Below are positions 3,861 to 64,000 of a DNA stretch of 64,000 nt, in pieces. Made by a program: the position numbers and the translations under genes. The stretch is from contig NZ_QTQI01000018.1 of assembly GCF_003853705.1 (NCBI RefSeq), forward strand, positions 1 through 64,000, in the 5' to 3' direction. Positions within the stretch are counted from its first letter, which is position 1. Every line of letters starts with the position of its first letter. This DNA comes from Burkholderia sp. Bp8992. Lineage in GTDB: Bacteria; Pseudomonadota; Gammaproteobacteria; Burkholderiales; Burkholderiaceae. The notes beneath the pieces are model-generated. The model saw only the letters and a list, made by a program, of their open reading frames with translations, searched no databases and was not told the DNA's origin.

Positions 3861-4793
3861 TCAGACGGCGGCCCGCAACGATTCGCCGGCGCGCCCGGTT
3901 GCGGATGGGGGCTCGCCGGGCGAACCCAACTGCAGCGCATGAAACAGGAAGCGCTGTAGCGTCGCGGCCGCCGACGTGCGATCGCCGGTATCCGCGTGGC
4001 TGAACAGCCCGAAATCGGCGGCGGGCGGGGCCGGCAGTCCGGCTGCCTGTGGATCGAGCGCGCGCATCGTGTCGCGACGCACGTTCCAGTCCAGCAGCAC
4101 CGCGATGCCGAGGCCGGCCTCGACCGCCGACTGGATCGCGGACAGGCTCGTGCTGGTGCAGATGACGCGCCATGCGCGGCCGGCTTCGCGCAACGTCGCG
4201 AACAGCCTGTCCTGCCACGGGCACGCACCGCCGAATGCGACGATGGGCACCGCTTCGTCCGTCGGAAGCCGGGGCGCGGCGAGCGCGGCGGCCCAGCGCA
4301 GCGGATGCCGCCACGTCGTGAGCGGCTCTGCGCGGATCAGTGCGGGATCGCCGATCACGAAATCGAGCGCATTGGCCGCGAGTCGCTGCGACAGCACCGG
4401 GCTCGTATCGACGACGATCTCGAGCGCGACGTTCGGAAACGACGCTGCGAACTGCCGCAGCGCGTGCGGCAGATGCCCGACGGCGATGTCCTCGAGAATG
4501 CCGAGCCGGACGGTGCCTGAAATGTCGCCCGCGGTGAGCGCGGCGCGGGCGGCGAGCCCGATGCCGAGGAGCTCGTGCGCATACGGCAGCAGCACGCTGC
4601 CCGCCGCCGTCGGCGTCACGCCGCGCGGCGAGCGTTCGAGCAGGCGCTGGCCGACTTCCTCCTCGAGCCGGCGCAGCGCCATGCTGACGGCGGCCTGCGT
4701 GCGATGCAGCACCATTGCCGCCGCGCTGACGCTGCCGGTTTCGATCACGGTGACGAACGTGCGCAGCAGCGTGCTGTCGAGATCGCGGATCAT
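3861..4793 (-). CDS. LysR family transcriptional regulator
   Basis: The protein has 310 residues from ATG 4793 (MIRDLDSTLLRTFVTVIETG). The N-terminal winged helix-turn-helix is typical: SVSAAAMVLHRTQAAVSMAL then LRRLEEEVGQRLLERSPRG. A two-lobed substrate-binding domain follows. ATG 4793 has AGGA six bases upstream; ATG 4814 in frame has no clear ribosome site. The gene is divergent from the EamA exporter with a gap of about 90 bases. By the usual LysR logic it should control the exporter and itself, with an unknown inducer. Confidence 0.88.
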   Translation of the reverse strand: MIRDLDSTLLRTFVTVIETGSVSAAAMVLHRTQAAVSMALRRLEEEVGQRLLERSPRGVTPTAAGSVLLPYAHELLGIGLAARAALTAGDISGTVRLGILEDIAVGHLPHALRQFAASFPNVALEIVVDTSPVLSQRLAANALDFVIGDPALIRAEPLTTWRHPLRWAAALAAPRLPTDEAVPIVAFGGACPWQDRLFATLREAGRAWRVICTSTSLSAIQSAVEAGLGIAVLLDWNVRRDTMRALDPQAAGLPAPPAADFGLFSHADTGDRTSAAATLQRFLFHALQLGSPGEPPSATGRAGESLRAAV

Positions 4794-4885
4794 CAATTTT
4801 CCTGATGCAGACATAAGAATTATCAGCTTATATCAGGCGCGCGGCCGCGGTTAGCATCGGCGTGTCACTGATCTGGAGCGGTCGA

Positions 4886-5770
4886 ATGAGCGAGGAATCG
4901 AGTACGGTACGGCCGGGTGGTGTCGCGCGCACGGCTGCCCCATTCGCGAACGCGGTCGCGCCGCTGCTGGCGGTCGCGTCGATGTGCAGCGTGCAGCTCG
5001 GCGCGGCGCTGTCGAGGCCGGCGACGATCGAGTACGGCACCGTAAGCACAACCTGGTTGCGGCTCTGTTTCGCTGCACTCGCGCTCGCGGTTGTCGTGCG
5101 GCCGCCGCTTCGCACTTATTCGCGGCAACGCTGGATTGCGGCCGTCGCGCTCGGCAGTGCGATGGCCGTGATGACGCTGTGCTTCTTCGAAGCCGTGCGC
5201 CGCGTGCCGCTCGGGCTCGCGGTGGCGATCAACTTTCTCGGGCCGCTGGCGGTCGCCGCCGTCGGCGTGCGCAGGCCGGCGATGCTCGTATGGCCCGTGC
5301 TGGCACTGGCGGGCGTGCTGTTGCTGGCGCGGCAGGACGGCATGTGGGTGACGGCGCCCGCCGCGCTGGTCTTTCCGGTCGGTTCGGCGCTCGGCTGGGC
5401 CGCCTATATCCTGTTGATGAAGCGCGTCGGTACGTTGTTCGACGGATTGCAGGGGCTCGCCACGTCGCTGATCGTGGCCGCGCTCGTCACGACGCCGTTC
5501 GGGCTTGCGCAAAGCGGCGGCCATCTGCCGGCCGGGCAACTGGTCGATGCCGCATATCTGGCGGTGCTGGTCCCGCTGTTTCCCTACGTGCTCGAGCTGA
5601 TCGCCCTGCGGCGGATGAGCGCGTCGGCGTTCGGCATCCTGATGAGCGCCGAGCCTGCGATCGCTGCCGTGATCGGTTTCGTCGTGCTGGCGCAGCCGAT
5701 GAGTGCGCTGCAGATCGCCGGCACGCTGTGCGTGGTCGGCGCGAGCATCGGTGCGGTCGTGCAGAAGTAG
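4886..5770 (+). CDS. EamA/DMT family inner-membrane transporter, RhtA-like
   Basis: This protein of about 294 residues is almost entirely hydrophobic, with two EamA repeats of about five membrane segments each. Examples are AMAVMTLCFFEAVRRVPLGL and AINFLGPLAVAAVGVR in the first half, and LMSAEPAIAAVIGFVVL near the end. The glycine/proline pattern resembles the threonine/homoserine exporter RhtA, but the substrate is not determined. ATG 4886 is chosen because GGAGCGG sits just upstream; GTG 4862 is possible. It is divergent from the LysR gene. Confidence 0.85.
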   Translation: MSEESSTVRPGGVARTAAPFANAVAPLLAVASMCSVQLGAALSRPATIEYGTVSTTWLRLCFAALALAVVVRPPLRTYSRQRWIAAVALGSAMAVMTLCFFEAVRRVPLGLAVAINFLGPLAVAAVGVRRPAMLVWPVLALAGVLLLARQDGMWVTAPAALVFPVGSALGWAAYILLMKRVGTLFDGLQGLATSLIVAALVTTPFGLAQSGGHLPAGQLVDAAYLAVLVPLFPYVLELIALRRMSASAFGILMSAEPAIAAVIGFVVLAQPMSALQIAGTLCVVGASIGAVVQK

Positions 5771-5841
5771 TCGCGTCGTCGCGAACGCACGGCCATGACG
5801 AGCCGGTGCGTGCGCGGGGTGTTTTATCGCGAGTGCATGCG

Positions 5842-6555
5842 TCACGCGATCGCGCCGCCGCCGTCGATCAGTACCGTCGAACCGGTCGCATAAGGCGTTG
5901 CCGCCAGATACAGGATCGCATTCGCGACATCCTCCGGCTGGCCGACCCTGCGTGCCGGAAGCCGCTGTGCGGCGCCTGCATACATCGCGTCGCGTGCGTC
6001 GGGTGCGAGCTTCTCCCACAGCGGCGTTGCGATCAGGCCGGGCGATACGGTATTCACGCGAACCGGCGCCAGCTCGAGTGCCAGGCCGCGGGCGAGGGCT
6101 TCGAGCGCCGCATTGATCGCCCCCTGCAGGACCGACGACGCGCTCGGCCGCACACTCAGGTAGCCGGATACGAATGTCAGCGAACCGCCGGGCGCGATAT
6201 CGATCGCGCGGGCGATGCGGTATGCGCCCCAGAACTTGCTGTCCATCGCCGCCTGCGCGTCGGCAAGCGGCAGTGCACGGACCGGGCCCGTGGCCGTCTT
6301 CGCGGCCGAGATCACGACGTGGTCGAACTCGCCGGCACGCGCGCAGAAGGCGTCGACGTCCGTCGTATTCGTGATGTCGAGCGTTTCGCGCCGCACATGC
6401 GCGGCTGGCATGGCGTCGACGTCGGACCTGCCCGGGTCGCGCGAGGCGATCGTCACTAGCGCGCCGCGTCGCGCGAATGCTGCCGCCGCGGCGGCGCCGA
6501 TGCCGGAGCTGCCTCCGACGACGAGGACTTTCTTTCCGTGAAGCAGATCATTCAT
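5842..6555 (-). CDS. SDR family oxidoreductase
   Basis: This 237-residue protein starts at MNDLLHGKKVLVVGGSSGIG, a nucleotide-binding motif for NAD(P). The expected catalytic Tyr-Lys pair is not obvious: the usual YxxxK position reads SVLQGAINAALEAL, so it may be an atypical SDR. Its end (GSTVLIDGGGAIA) is characteristic of the family. It is the last gene of a three-gene minus-strand operon, 37 bases after the deacetylase-like gene, with a divergent LysR gene at the far end. The function is not assigned beyond the fold. Confidence 0.82.
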   Translation of the reverse strand: MNDLLHGKKVLVVGGSSGIGAAAAAAFARRGALVTIASRDPGRSDVDAMPAAHVRRETLDITNTTDVDAFCARAGEFDHVVISAAKTATGPVRALPLADAQAAMDSKFWGAYRIARAIDIAPGGSLTFVSGYLSVRPSASSVLQGAINAALEALARGLALELAPVRVNTVSPGLIATPLWEKLAPDARDAMYAGAAQRLPARRVGQPEDVANAILYLAATPYATGSTVLIDGGGAIA

Positions 6556-58423: not shown

Positions 58424-58567
58424 TTGCGTTGTCCGGTAATTGACGGGATTCAAACGTCAATTCCGGTCAAATTCATGCAATCTCGGGGTATTTTCGGATT
58501 TGTCTTATATTCATCGTTGAGGTGAGCCGATATCGTTGTGTCATGGTTACCAAGGCTGGAGATGTCC

Positions 58568-58978
58568 ATGACACCGTATCGCGATCTGACCGACCACGAG
58601 TGGCGCTGCGTTGCGCCGCTTCTGCCCGAAATGCAGCCGCGCACCGAGTTGCGCGGCCGTCCGTTAGCCAATACGCGGGCCGTCCTGAACGGCGTGCTCT
58701 GGGTGATCTACAGCGGCGCGACGTGGTCCGCCATGCCGCGCCGTTACCCGTCGTATCAGACATGCCATCGCCGCTTCAAGGTCTGGCACGAGACGGGCAC
58801 GCTGTTGAGCGTGATGCGTGAACTCTATGGCGATCCGGGCGTGAATCTGTGCAACGAATTGTCCGCGCGAATGCGCAAGCACACGCAATCGAAGGCGGCA
58901 GAGGCACGCAGCAACGCGGTACCCGCGTATCGCAAACCGGGCGGCTATGCGCCCGACTCGCTGAAGCGCGCGGCGTGA
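58568..58978 (+). CDS. Solo IS5-type transposase N-terminal domain protein (paralogue of the gene at 30962)
   Basis: This 136-residue protein reads LTDHEWRCVAPLLPEM, RGRPLANTRAVLNGVLWV and WSAMPRRYPSYQTCHRRFKVW, with clear similarity along the first 85 residues to the protein at 30962-31363. The catalytic DDE domain is missing, and the tail after residue 85 differs (Lys/Ala-rich). ATG 58568 has GGAG nearby; 58562 is an alternative. TGAGGTGAG occurs upstream here and upstream of the other paralogue. No inverted repeats or target duplications were found. Confidence 0.75.
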   Translation: MTPYRDLTDHEWRCVAPLLPEMQPRTELRGRPLANTRAVLNGVLWVIYSGATWSAMPRRYPSYQTCHRRFKVWHETGTLLSVMRELYGDPGVNLCNELSARMRKHTQSKAAEARSNAVPAYRKPGGYAPDSLKRAA

Positions 58979-59080: not shown

Positions 59081-59542
59081 TTATTGCTGGCGAATCCAGG
59101 TCTGCGACCGGCCGAGCAGCGATACGCCGATGTAACCGCGCACCACGAGTTTCTGGCCGCCGTCTTCAAGCGTCATCTTGCACTTGTAGACCTTGCCGTT
59201 CTCCGGGTCGAGGATGTTGCCGCCGTCCCAGTGGTCGCCTTCCTTCTTCATTGCCTTGATGATCGTCATGCCCTTGATGAGCTGATCCTTGCGCTCGTCC
59301 GTGCAGGCGGTGCAGCGGCGATCGGGCGTATCGTTCGCGCCGAGGCCCTTGACGACCTTGCCCGTCAGCGCACCGTCGCCGTCCTCGGCGATCTGCACGA
59401 GTGCTTTCGGTTGATGGGTGTTGTCATCGATCGTCTGCCACATGCCGACGGGATTGTCGGCTTGTGCGAACGTGGGGGCTGCACAGGCGAGCAGTGCGCC
59501 GGCAACGGCGATTGCACGCAACGGGCGGGTCAGTTGAATCAT
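59081..59542 (-). CDS. DUF2147 family exported protein
   Basis: This 153-residue protein has a signal peptide ending APTFAQA, then the DUF2147 pattern NPVGMWQTIDDNTHQPKALV, CTACTDERKDQLIKGMTIIK, then DPENGKVYKCKMTLEDGGQK and RGYIGVSLLGRSQTWIRQ. The two CxxC-like cysteines in RRCTACTDERK may form a disulfide. It is a periplasmic protein of unknown function found widely in Burkholderia. It is downstream of the TpsB gene on the same strand, but a terminator separates them. Confidence 0.87.
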   Translation of the reverse strand: MIQLTRPLRAIAVAGALLACAAPTFAQADNPVGMWQTIDDNTHQPKALVQIAEDGDGALTGKVVKGLGANDTPDRRCTACTDERKDQLIKGMTIIKAMKKEGDHWDGGNILDPENGKVYKCKMTLEDGGQKLVVRGYIGVSLLGRSQTWIRQQ

Positions 59543-59672: not shown

Positions 59673-59699
59673 AAACAGCCCGCGTGACGCGGGCTGTTT
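59673..59699. terminator. Terminator after the TpsB-type gene
   Basis: AAACAGCCCGCG / CGCGGGCTGTTT (59673-59684 with 59688-59699) has a three-base loop. It ends the repeat-protein/transporter transcript 10 bases after the stop. Confidence 0.88.
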
Positions 59700-59708
59700 G
59701 GTGTCCGA

Positions 59709-61394
59709 TCAGTTCAGCTGATACGAGAATGCGGCGTTGATGCGCGGGCTGCGCGACGCGCTTTCGACGGGCGCGTCGCCGATCGGCTTCGCAACGTTCA
59801 GGTCGAGGCTGTAGAAGCGGCTGTCGGACAACCGCACACCGATGCCGACCGACGACATGCGGTTCGGCGACGGCGTGCCTGAGTGCAGATACACGCGCGC
59901 CATGTCGTAGGCCACGTACGGCGTGATCGATTTCAGATACGTCCAGCCCGGCGTGAAGCCGCGGTTGACCTCCAGCGACATCGCCCAGCCCGAGTCGCCC
60001 GACGCTTCGCCAGGCTGATAGCCGAGCGCGTAGCGCGTCGAGCCGAACGAGATCTGTTCGGACGTCGGCAGCGAATCGGGACTGTATTGGCCGGTCAGCG
60101 AAACCGACGTGCCGATCCGGAACGGCCATTCGTTGGTTTGCGTGACAGTCGCGCCGGTGCGGACGAAGGTCAGCGAAATCGGGTTGCCCACCGAGGTCGT
60201 CGTCGAGCCGACGGTGATGTCCTGCGCCTTCGACGCGCCGAGGATGTTGAAACCCTTCGCGACATTGACGCTCAGCTTCTGGACCTGTTTCGGCTGGACG
60301 CTCGTGTAGTCGAGTTGCATCTGCAGCACGCGGACCTGCGAGCGCGTATCGAGGGTCGCGCCGTTGATCTGGTTCTGGTAGCGGTCCTCGTTGTGCGACG
60401 CGTAGCCCGACACGGTCCCGAGCAGGCTGCGCTGGTTGTTCAGCAAGATCGGATAGGATGCCGAAAGACCAAGCTTCTCGTTCTTGACCGTACGCTGCAC
60501 ATAAGACGGCAGCCCAGGGTTGTCGGTCGGCTTGCCGCGATACGTACTTGCGTCGAGGCGCGTGATCAGGCCGCTGCTGCCGACAGGTACCGCGCCGCTG
60601 AACGCGAAGTAGGTCTGCTTGTCACGTCCGGGCGGCGCGAGCGCCGAGATGCTCAATTGCTCGCCAAACCGCGTCAGGCCGTTTTCGGTCGCGGTGATGA
60701 GGCCCTGGACGCCGGGGTGGTTGAAGTCGATACCGGTGCCGATGTTGAACGGCTTGCGGTCGACCGCGAGTTCGAGCGTCGTGGCGCCATCGGTGGTTTG
60801 CGGCGGCGGGACATTCGCCTTCACCGTGAGGCCGGGCAGCAGGCCGAACGTGTTCACGTAGCGTTCGAACGTCGCGCGGCGCAGCGGGCGATCGTCCGTG
60901 ATGTGGGCAGCGATCGCGCGGATCTTCGGTTCCATCGCACCGGGCTTGCCGGTGATCTTGACGTCCGACACATAGCCTTCGACTACCGTGATGCGCACGA
61001 CGCCATTCTCGAACGTCTGCGCGGGAACGAACGCGAACGAAAGCGCGTAGCCGCGTTCCTGGTACAGCTTCGTCACGCCGTTGGCGGTTTCGATCAGGTC
61101 GCCGATCGTGATGTCCTTGCCGACGAGCGGGGTGAAGCGACGCGAGATTTCCTCGAACGGCACCGACTTCACGCCTTCGACCTGAAACGTCGACGGCGTC
61201 AGGTGTCGCGACAGCAGCTCCTGCAGTTGCGGCGCTTGCGGGGCGACCTGCACGGTCACGTTCGGGCCGGTCTTCGGTGCGTTGATCTGGGGCAGGGAGT
61301 CGAGCGGGTTACCGCCGACGCGCGATTGTGCATGTGCCGTGCCTGCTGCCGCGATGGCGAGCAGCATCATCCATCTGTCGAGTCTGGATTTCAT
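59709..61394 (-). CDS. Omp85-superfamily transporter, ShlB/FhaC/HecB (TpsB) type
   Basis: The protein has 561 residues from ATG 61394 (GAGGAAG upstream). A signal peptide ends GTAHAQS. Two POTRA-like regions (STFQVEGVKSVPFEEISRRF; VVEGYVSDVKITGKPGAMEP) are followed by a 16-stranded barrel. The conserved loop motif is represented by RYALGYQPGEASGDSGWAM, equivalent to the VRGY/SGDRGW region of FhaC. The family secretes large beta-helical partners across the outer membrane. Here the upstream neighbours are two low-complexity repeat proteins, not a recognisable TpsA. It is the last gene of the minus-strand group. Confidence 0.88.
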   Translation of the reverse strand: MKSRLDRWMMLLAIAAAGTAHAQSRVGGNPLDSLPQINAPKTGPNVTVQVAPQAPQLQELLSRHLTPSTFQVEGVKSVPFEEISRRFTPLVGKDITIGDLIETANGVTKLYQERGYALSFAFVPAQTFENGVVRITVVEGYVSDVKITGKPGAMEPKIRAIAAHITDDRPLRRATFERYVNTFGLLPGLTVKANVPPPQTTDGATTLELAVDRKPFNIGTGIDFNHPGVQGLITATENGLTRFGEQLSISALAPPGRDKQTYFAFSGAVPVGSSGLITRLDASTYRGKPTDNPGLPSYVQRTVKNEKLGLSASYPILLNNQRSLLGTVSGYASHNEDRYQNQINGATLDTRSQVRVLQMQLDYTSVQPKQVQKLSVNVAKGFNILGASKAQDITVGSTTTSVGNPISLTFVRTGATVTQTNEWPFRIGTSVSLTGQYSPDSLPTSEQISFGSTRYALGYQPGEASGDSGWAMSLEVNRGFTPGWTYLKSITPYVAYDMARVYLHSGTPSPNRMSSVGIGVRLSDSRFYSLDLNVAKPIGDAPVESASRSPRINAAFSYQLN

Positions 61395-61538
61395 TGTTCT
61401 TCCTCGTAGGCCTTGCTTTTCGTCTTCTTTGTAATGCCGGCGCGCGACACCAGGGTGTCGCGCGCCGCGTGCCGCCATGCCGGTTGTGTTTGTACGGCCG
61501 CGCCATTCGCTCCGGCTGCGATGGTGCGGCCGTCCTCC

Positions 61539-62960
61539 TTACTTGCCAACGCTACCCAGCGTGCCCAGCAACCCCGTTACCGGTGCCAGCAGGCCCGTCG
61601 AGCCGCTACCCGACGATGCCGTGCCCGTGACACCGCCGACCAGCGACGTGACCGGCGCGAGCGGGCTCGCGCCTCCCGATCCTGCTGCACCGCCCACTGC
61701 TCCGGTGACAGTATTCAGCAAACCGGTGACGGGCGCGAGAGGGTTTGCACTGCCTGCGCCGCCTGTTGCGCCGCCGAGCGTGCCGGTGACCGTCGACACG
61801 AGATTCGTGACGGGGGCGAGCGGACCGCCGCTGCCGCCTGCCGCGCCACCGAGTGCGCCGGTGACCGTCGACACGAGGCCCGTGACCGGAGCGAGCGGGC
61901 CGCTGCCCGAGCCGCCCGTTGCGCCGCCAAGTGCGCCCGTGAGCGAGCCGAGCGGCGTCGAGCCGAGACCGGACAGCAGGCCGCCGAGCGGGTTCGTCGA
62001 GCTGGAGCCCGACGACGTGCCGTTCTGGACGGTTGCCGTCGAGCCGCCGACGAGGCTCGTGATCAGGCCGGGGATCGGTGCTGCGCCGTTCGGGCCGTTC
62101 GGGTTGACGAGGCCGCCTGCGTTGGTCACGGTGTTGCCGACCGCGGTCACGAGTTGGCCGACGTCGCCGACGAGCGGCTGGCTCGACGTGCCGCCCACCT
62201 GCTTGCCTGCCGAGCTGATCGCGCCGCCGATCTGGCCGAGCAGGCCGGAGACGGGTTGGCCGAGGCCGGTCGTCGTGCCGACCTGTTGTGTGACCTGGCC
62301 GGCCGTGATCACGAGCGGCGTGATCGCCGAGCTGATCGGTTGCGTGACCTGCTGGACTGCGCCCGACGACAGCGTCGAGCCGATCGTCGTGCCGGCGGCC
62401 GTCAGGCCGTTGGCGACCGTGTCGAGCACGGTGCCGACCGGCGTCGTGACCGGAGCGAGCGGCGCGAGCGGGCCCGTGCCGAGCGCCTTCACCGTCGAGC
62501 TCAGGCCGGACACTGTGTTGCTCGTCGCGCCGACGACATTGCCGAGGCCGGCAACCGTCGTGCCGACCGGATCCTTCGTCGAGCCGATCTGTCCCAGCCC
62601 GTTGCTCACGGCATCGGCGGCTGCGCCGACGATCGTGCCGGTGCTGGAGAGCGTGCTGCCGACTCCCTTCGTCACGCCGTCGCCGAGGCCCGGCAGGCTG
62701 ATGTTGCCGACCGTGCTGCCGAGGTCGCTGGCCGTCTGGCCGACCGTGCTGACGACACCCTTGGTGCCGGTCGACGTGCCGCTGGTGCCGCTCGTGCTGG
62801 GCGTGCCGCTCGTGCTCGGATTGCTGTTGCTGCTGCTGGACGGCGTCGCGCTGACACCGCCGCCGCCGCAGGCGGCCAGCAGGCAGGCTGCGGCGAAGGC
62901 GGTGAGGGGTACGCGCCACTGGCGCAGGGTGACGGTCGTGATGAAACGTTGCTGGGACAT
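61539..62960 (-). CDS. Repeat lipoprotein of LAPVTGLVSTVTGALGG type
   Basis: This 473-residue protein has an N-terminal signal ending LLAAC, so Cys is lipidated, followed by a Ser/Thr/Gly linker. The rest is built from degenerate Gly/Val/Thr/Leu-rich units. The C-terminal part has about six clear units such as PLAPVTGLVSTVTGALGG. Databases often name such proteins collagen-like, but Gly is not at every third position. GAGGAG precedes ATG 62960. The transporter starts 144 bases downstream. Cell-surface display or adhesion is a guess. Confidence 0.75.
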   Translation of the reverse strand: MSQQRFITTVTLRQWRVPLTAFAAACLLAACGGGGVSATPSSSSNSNPSTSGTPSTSGTSGTSTGTKGVVSTVGQTASDLGSTVGNISLPGLGDGVTKGVGSTLSSTGTIVGAAADAVSNGLGQIGSTKDPVGTTVAGLGNVVGATSNTVSGLSSTVKALGTGPLAPLAPVTTPVGTVLDTVANGLTAAGTTIGSTLSSGAVQQVTQPISSAITPLVITAGQVTQQVGTTTGLGQPVSGLLGQIGGAISSAGKQVGGTSSQPLVGDVGQLVTAVGNTVTNAGGLVNPNGPNGAAPIPGLITSLVGGSTATVQNGTSSGSSSTNPLGGLLSGLGSTPLGSLTGALGGATGGSGSGPLAPVTGLVSTVTGALGGAAGGSGGPLAPVTNLVSTVTGTLGGATGGAGSANPLAPVTGLLNTVTGAVGGAAGSGGASPLAPVTSLVGGVTGTASSGSGSTGLLAPVTGLLGTLGSVGK

Positions 62961-63000
62961 GATGGACTCCTCGCTGTCTTTTCGATGAATGGATGCCGGA

Positions 63001-64000
63001 TTACTTGCCGTGCGTGCCGCCGAGCAGGCCGCCGATCAGCGACGTGACAGGCGCGAGCGGGTTCGACGTCGAGCCCGAGTTCGTGACGGCGCCCGTGCCG
63101 CCGCTCAGTGCCGGTGCGCCGACCGTGCTGGTGACCGTCGAGACGGCGTTCGTCACCGGGGCGAGCGGGCTGCTGCCGCCTGCGCCGCCCGTCACGCCGC
63201 CGAGGGCACCCGTGACTGCGCCGAGGAGACCTGTGACCGGTGCAAGCGGGCTGCCGCTCGTTCCGCCGGTTGCGCCGCCGAGTGCGCCGGTGACCGTCGA
63301 GACGAGGCCGGTAACCGGTGCGAGCGGGCTGCCGCTGCCGCCTGCTGCGCCACCGAGTGCGCCGGTGACCGTGGAGACGAGGCCGGTGACCGGAGCGAGC
63401 GGGCCGCTGCCGCCGCCTGCTACGCCACCAAGTGCGCCGGTGACCGTGGAGACGAGGCCGGTGACCGGAGCGAGCGGACCGCTGCCGCTGCCTGCTGCGC
63501 CACCAAGTGCGCCGGTCACCGTCGAGACGAGGCCGGTGACCGGAGCGAGCGGGCCACTGCCGCCGCCTGCTGCGCCGCCGAGAGCGCCGGTAACCGTCGA
63601 GACGAGACCGGTGACCGGAGCGAGCGGACCGCTGCCGCCACCCGTTGCGCCGCCGAGAGCGCCCGTGACGGTGGAGACGAGGCCCGTGAGCGGAGCGAGC
63701 GGATTGGTCACGCCGCCGGTGCCGCCCGTGAGCAGGCCGCCGACGGTCTTCACGGTATTGCCCGTGGCCGAGACGGTGTTGCCGAGGCCTGTCGTGACGG
63801 GGTTGCCGCCTGTCGACGCGAGCAGCGCGCCGGCCTGGTTCAGTCCGTTGCCGACCGTGCCGAGCAGCGTGTTGACGGGGGCGCCGAGGCCGGTCGCCGT
63901 ACCGATCGTCTGGGTCGTCTGGCCGACCATCGTCGTGATCGGCGTGATGGCCGAGCTGACCGTCTGCGTGACTTGCTGGATCGGGCCGGTCGACAGCGCA
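63001..64000 (-). CDS. Second LAPVTGLVSTVTGALGG repeat protein, 5' end outside the window
   Basis: Reading is open from 64000 to the stop at 63001-63003, and no stop interrupts the visible 332 codons. The true start lies beyond the window; ATG 63930 is internal, because the codons upstream continue as IQQVTQTVSSAITPITT, matching VQQVTQPISSAITPLV in the next gene. At least nine tandem 25-residue units run from about residue 92 after ATG 63930 to the end, ending LLGGTHGK. It sits 40 bases upstream of the other repeat gene, same strand. The two are diverged duplicates. Confidence 0.72.
   Translation of the reverse strand, partial: ALSTGPIQQVTQTVSSAITPITTMVGQTTQTIGTATGLGAPVNTLLGTVGNGLNQAGALLASTGGNPVTTGLGNTVSATGNTVKTVGGLLTGGTGGVTNPLAPLTGLVSTVTGALGGATGGGSGPLAPVTGLVSTVTGALGGAAGGGSGPLAPVTGLVSTVTGALGGAAGSGSGPLAPVTGLVSTVTGALGGVAGGGSGPLAPVTGLVSTVTGALGGAAGGSGSPLAPVTGLVSTVTGALGGATGGTSGSPLAPVTGLLGAVTGALGGVTGGAGGSSPLAPVTNAVSTVTSTVGAPALSGGTGAVTNSGSTSNPLAPVTSLIGGLLGGTHGK

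Follow-up and report, generated by a model that had tools for sequence, protein, structure and literature searches.

We propose that three minus-strand genes at the end of the window, by which we mean the whole 64,000-nucleotide stretch of Burkholderia sp. Bp8992 DNA analysed here, probably form a two-partner export unit, in which a TpsB transporter from a clade of its own is partnered by lipidated, glycine-rich Collagen_mid cargo that replaces a beta-helical TpsA. Underlying this proposal are features read directly from sequence: the separate transporter clade, the absent TPS partner, the linkage and co-retention of the two kinds of gene, the lipoboxes and the uniform make-up of the putative cargo. 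The first-pass annotation of this DNA had raised the possibility that the repeat proteins are a new class of cargo. Their putative role as cargo has since gained strong comparative support, but the class is not an unknown one, as these are PF15984 proteins already in print; what is new is the tie of these lipoproteins to a TpsB.

The genes are separated by 144 and 40 bases, both lengths agreeing with the earlier description (Table 1). The transporter gene starts with the ATG at 61394, whereas the mechanical ORF begins at 61478. Long plus-strand ORFs opposite the three genes look like frame shadows. A terminator had been placed after the last gene, and a strong hairpin (10-bp stem, z -5.6) is indeed found 3' of the TpsB stop codon; because its T-run is poor and a terminator scan does not list it, we call this terminator likely. 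Past the hairpin lies a DUF2147 gene, which may be part of the unit because a second genus of the family likewise has a DUF2147 gene 3' of its transporter (L139, 9799-10269). Further along, a short plus-strand ORF (58538-58978) occupies the position of BCAL1519 of strain J2315, labelled a putative transposase in the available text of PMC10224339.

Table 1. Features of the export locus, in window coordinates.
Feature	Coordinates	Strand	Basis
TpsB-type outer-membrane transporter, 561 aa	59709..61394	-	PF08479 and PF03865; PDB profile search; clade tree
POTRA_2 domain, transporter residues 68-140	60975..61193	-	Pfam
ShlB barrel match, transporter residues 257-522	59829..60626	-	Pfam
L6 loop motif ALGY, lid-lock Arg absent	60018..60029	-	Alignment against FhaC-type (V/I)RG(Y/F)
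Collagen_mid lipoprotein 2, 473 aa, BCAL1523 counterpart	61539..62960	-	ORF and Pfam
Collagen_mid domain of lipoprotein 2, residues 89-286	62103..62696	-	Pfam
Collagen_mid lipoprotein 1, BCAL1524 counterpart, cut by window edge	63001..64000	-	ORF and Pfam
Collagen_mid domain of lipoprotein 1, C-terminal half	63724..63999	-	Pfam
Hairpin 3' of transporter gene, probable terminator, weak T-run	59675..59697	-	
DUF2147 protein (PF09917), BCAL1520 counterpart, past hairpin	59081..59542	-	Pfam

The assignment of the transporter to the Omp85/TpsB group holds. The window protein matches POTRA_2 (8e-21) and ShlB (1.5e-20), and searching the PDB with a profile built from its clade picks up CdiB, TpsB4 and FhaC. 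POTRA_2 and ShlB were both matched (E<=0.001) in each of the 20 clade proteins scanned, the one from the window among them, whereas POTRA_3 was recognised in none of these 20 compared with 11 of 20 controls. In the window transporter only the first POTRA is recognised by Pfam, and the structure model has a pLDDT of 44. No Slam barrel was matched, POTRA_2 and ShlB being the only Pfam matches and a sub-threshold BamA match the only one from NCBIfam. Of the structure alignments, A1 comprises the window plus 19 of the 36 named loci, and A2 the window plus 28 proteins drawn from 15 of those loci. In a tree of 46 TpsBs, the 23 with collagen-like or low-complexity neighbours fall on one side with support of 100/100 and a branch of 1.09; the sequences were hand-picked from 165 matches, with near-duplicates, fragments and several ShlB matches omitted.

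The alternative raised with the first-pass annotation was that the real TpsA lies beyond position 64,000. This now appears unlikely, since the nearest genome carries Tad genes there and no match to the TPS domain (PF05860) is found near 23 clade transporters. Specifically, the corresponding region of that genome holds the full-length lipoprotein 1 followed upstream by TadE and RcpC, and family scans matched no TPS domain in the window portions of the three proteins. A search of 26 genomes for PF05860 (E<=1e-5) found no match on the same contig within 100 kb of any of the 23 clade transporters, although some contigs do not extend that far (46 kb for G643:C106, 85 kb for G183:C93 and 91 kb for G001:C25, among others). 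The nearest same-contig TPS domain to any clade transporter is 128 kb away. The 48 other PF03865 genes of these genomes serve as a control: a TPS domain lies within 15 kb of 39 of them and within 35 kb of 42; these distances are counted over 71 of 73 PF03865 rows, G050:C14 and G035:C74 being omitted as second gene pieces. Likewise, a TPS domain lies no more than about 12 kb from 8 of the 13 next-best transporter matches (12 genomes of the phylum sample described below).

The absence of TPS domains also bears on the idea that the lipoproteins are periplasmic partners of the transporter, comparable to BcpO or the Bam lipoproteins, with the true substrate encoded elsewhere. An accessory lipoprotein of a TPS system is known in BcpO (available text of PMC5422565). 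However, 6 of the 26 genomes searched lack any PF05860 match, and all six are among the 23 clade genomes; in five genomes the clade transporter is the sole PF03865 match and PF05860 matches number zero (E<=1e-5). The lipoproteins are, moreover, mostly 400-650 aa long, repetitive and of varying length, and some loci carry three or four of them in tandem. We consider a periplasmic role quite improbable and return to the lipoproteins as candidate cargo.

Both repeat proteins of the window match Collagen_mid (PF15984), with E-values of 1e-63 and 1.5e-28 and scores of 215 and 100 bits against a curated cut-off of 31.1. Described earlier as two related low-complexity proteins, they are by these matches more than low-complexity sequence. 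A repeat artefact of GC-rich DNA is ruled out by the PF15984 matches together with wide conservation. At least one lipobox had been reported, and it is present in lipoprotein 2 inside the window (LLAAC, Cys31); that of lipoprotein 1 lies past the window edge, where relatives show LSLSAC, at full length in L103 and others. A lipobox is present in 29 of 31 proteins taken from clade genomes (that of L148 was read by eye), and the signals of the remaining two resemble type I. In the body of these 31 proteins K/R/H make up 0.4-5%, most have a single Cys, that of the lipobox, and each has 0-12 aromatic or His residues. We do not call them uncharged because only K/R/H were measured and some are Asp-rich.

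Past the Cys the stalks vary, with GTS or GGT runs, GDP runs and, in some species, GATGPTG runs. In the nearest genome there are 19 Gly-X-Y triplets in protein 1 (of the GTS type) and 4 in protein 2; the window copy of protein 1 is cut before this part. Lipoprotein 2 has C-terminal LAPVTGLL repeats and ends in LLGTLGSVGK, lipoprotein 1 ends in GGLLGGTHGK, and the tails of the 31 proteins are mostly Leu/Gly-rich, with K/R/H among the last four residues in 24 (1.6 expected) and the Leu/Gly tail pattern in 20 (8.9 expected), counts that are descriptive because both tests were picked after the tails had been viewed. An AlphaFold model of a cargo protein is weak (pLDDT 48), with helices at about 70 in residues 66-198 only, in the Collagen_mid part, and a sequence search of the PDB with a cargo profile gave no credible match. 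At L147 (G216, 4412-6127), a clade-linked lipoprotein contains 35 consecutive GATGPTG Gly-X-Y triplets, a truer collagen pattern than that of Burkholderia, and the locus has three further low-complexity proteins, one of them without a lipobox. At L158 (G183:C173, 6122-7393), a Collagen_mid lipoprotein apart from the transporter shows an extended Gly-X-Y stretch close to the N-terminus (GKPGATGSAGVQGVPG). In Burkholderia sp. TSV86 (L133, 6555-7848), the second lipoprotein gene apparently lies in two frames, the first lipoprotein and the transporter being open.

Comparison of gene neighbourhoods, which had been suggested across Burkholderia, shows that PF15984 genes adjoin the clade TpsB across families and in other orders of the class. 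In a sample of 300 genomes of the order, PF15984 was found in 9 genomes and the transporter (E<=1e-25) in 15; all 9 are among those 15, and in all 9 the two genes are adjacent. The same holds for 13 of 13 PF15984 genomes in a sample of 398 genomes of the phylum; six of these 13 come from different orders within the class. With the clade profile, 14 genomes of this second sample score 633-822 bits and the remainder at most 263 bits; the 14 consist of the 13 PF15984 genomes and G050. In PF15984-negative G050 and G097, a Gly/Ala/Ser/Thr-rich lipoprotein adjoins the transporter. In G216, also PF15984-negative, four low-complexity proteins precede the transporter, the immediate neighbour being without a lipobox, and in PF15984-negative G191 the nearest candidate is 2.4 kb off, beyond another gene. 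The transporter match of G244 adjoins a giant TPS-domain gene, and that of G041 has neither kind of neighbour.

Such a shared neighbourhood could be a relic of ancestry with no functional coupling. Within Burkholderia, the locus is simply inherited by descent, being conserved in 51 of 52 cases (some genomes fetched twice), with the remaining one cut by a contig end. Beyond the genus, linkage spans families and other orders even though gene order changes, the TpsB coming first in G232 and G262. Evidence independent of neighbourhood comes from genus g21, in which no such lipoprotein lies beside the transporter at any of the 5 loci fetched and yet 25 of 27 transporter-bearing genomes keep both genes; in seven other genera, the lipoprotein is beside the transporter in 9 of 9 loci fetched. 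The unlinked state in g21 speaks against an account based on linkage alone. Across 239 genomes of the family, PF15984 is present in 134, the transporter (E<=1e-50) in 135 and both in 133, the overlap having been counted by eye from two genome lists. The three exceptions look decayed or come from a draft: the lipoprotein-only genome, G850, has an open frame of 242 aa with a typical tail in another frame and looks damaged, and the transporter-only genomes are G795, with an internal stop, and G905, with an open gene in a 500-contig draft. At the G795 locus (L218, 6232-8019), the stop in the clade transporter and the missing PF15984 match have the appearance of joint decay. Because the genomes are related and the samples overlap, these counts are not independent and we attach no probability to them. 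They indicate that this transporter branch is usually kept or lost together with glycine-rich, predicted lipid-anchored proteins, and we regard the relic explanation as very improbable.

A pilus function must also be weighed, in which the transporter would be an accessory of the Tad/Flp pilus, aiding the pilus without exporting lipoproteins, and the lipoproteins would be surface or assembly factors linked to the pilus. Of 13 loci inspected, 7 have Tad/pilus genes flanking the pair, and these 7 span four families of the order; five of them carry TadE or RcpC, whereas L139 and L143 have a prepilin peptidase alone. The literature likewise treats the locus as part of the Flp cluster, partly regulated by CepR: the available text of PMC2753556 places the putative operon BCAL1524-1520 in the Flp pilus cluster and finds BCAL1520 reduced in a cepR mutant. 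Against this, the pair persists where pilus families are unmatched in part-scanned flanks, namely at L150, L151, L153 and L155, from other orders, and at L140 and L145 (Pfam scans of 30 flanking proteins at 13 loci), and genus g21 keeps both genes although they are unlinked. A pilus accessory seems unlikely to us; within the order, the nearby pilus genes point to a joint use in attaching to surfaces.

The published record of the B. cenocepacia counterparts, as far as the available text of each paper goes, bears on the proposal in both directions. By gene order, sizes and 40- and 144-base gaps, the window locus corresponds to BCAL1524, BCAL1523, BCAL1522 and BCAL1520 of J2315, with equal lengths for BCAL1522 and BCAL1520 (coordinates from PMC10224339). 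These four genes may form an operon, BCAL1523 and BCAL1524 being collagen-like lipoproteins and putative adhesins, and BCAL1522 is listed as a putative exported heme utilization-related protein (PMC10224339), a label that no Pfam or NCBIfam domain match supports. Neither "TpsB" nor "two-partner" occurs in the available text of that paper, which draws no link between transporter and cargo. BCAL1524 has been found in outer-membrane vesicles, which does not prove surface exposure, and its deletion mutant shows lowered autoaggregation (PMC10303873). BCAL1520, BCAL1523 and BCAL1524 are induced upon contact with host-membrane vesicles (PMC7970998); as a point against the proposal, BCAL1522 is unnamed among these contact-induced genes and among the CepR-changed genes of PMC2753556, in the available text of both. 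Among the literature matches listed, with subscription journals mostly outside the scope, nothing ties TpsB or two-partner secretion to collagen-like, PF15984 or lipoprotein cargo, and a two-partner route for lipoproteins is apparently undescribed.

How might such a unit work? We infer that the cargo is exported by Sec, lipidated and then delivered to the outer membrane via the Lol route. With few basic residues, few aromatics and usually the lipobox Cys alone, the chains would be expected to stay unfolded. Contact with the POTRA domain could be made by the helical middle of the chain or by its basic C-terminal end, rich in Leu and Gly, after which the chain would thread through the barrel and leave a lipid-held stalk at the surface. 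These stalks may serve cell-cell and cell-surface adhesion; for BCAL1524, a part in autoaggregation has published support. One transporter probably serves unlinked cargo copies of the same genome too. More specifically, and only tentatively, we suggest that this dedicated TpsB clade has no TPS recognition and instead reads either a basic C-terminus rich in Leu and Gly or the helical middle part of N-terminally lipidated chains, threading them C-terminus first so that the lipid acts as anchor and the stalk ends up outside, with part of the clade operating without the lid-lock Arg.

The loss of this Arg, otherwise conserved in Omp85 proteins, is an unusual feature of the transporter and weighs against the proposal. 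In FhaC-type proteins the L6 motif is (V/I)RG(Y/F), and its Arg bonds to an Asp of strand 13 to form a lid-lock common to Omp85 proteins (available text of PMC4490367). Of the 23 clade rows, 14 lack the Arg and 9 keep it, whereas it is kept in 23 of 23 other TpsBs. All 52 Burkholderia loci (some genomes fetched twice) read ALGY at this position, as does the window. Because the Arg is kept in all 6 clade rows of other orders and in 3 of 4 PF15984-negative rows, its loss probably came later than the cargo change or was repeated.

Compared with type Vb systems (FhaC/FHA, HMW1B/HMW1 and CdiB/CdiA), the likeness lies in a POTRA_2 and ShlB transporter of the FhaC/CdiB family and in its gene being paired with that of a long partner, rich in repeats and poor in Cys. 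Here, however, the partner has a lipobox, low complexity, a predicted helical middle and no TPS domain, and the transporter forms its own clade, with no recognised POTRA_3 and without the L6 Arg. Judged from these sequence features, the likeness to two-partner secretion is strong in working principle, and membership in that system fails on the TPS domain. The Slam (type XI) systems resemble our proposal in bringing lipoproteins to the surface via a dedicated barrel without inner-membrane energy (available text of PMC9090332), but the transporter here belongs to the Omp85/TpsB families and no TbpB- or HpuA-like cargo was seen. The Bucl collagen-like proteins share collagen-like repeats in Burkholderia proteins (PMC4565658); they are a separate protein set, and the available text of that paper nowhere mentions "two-partner", POTRA or ShlB.

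Collagen-like lipoproteins of the Bcc have been studied as adhesins and antigens, with no surface route named in the available published text, and we propose here their likely exporter. The natural Omp85 proteins that lack the lid-lock Arg should provide a direct test of the purpose of that residue. If our proposal is true, two-partner secretion would extend to lipoproteins that have neither a TPS domain nor a beta-helix.
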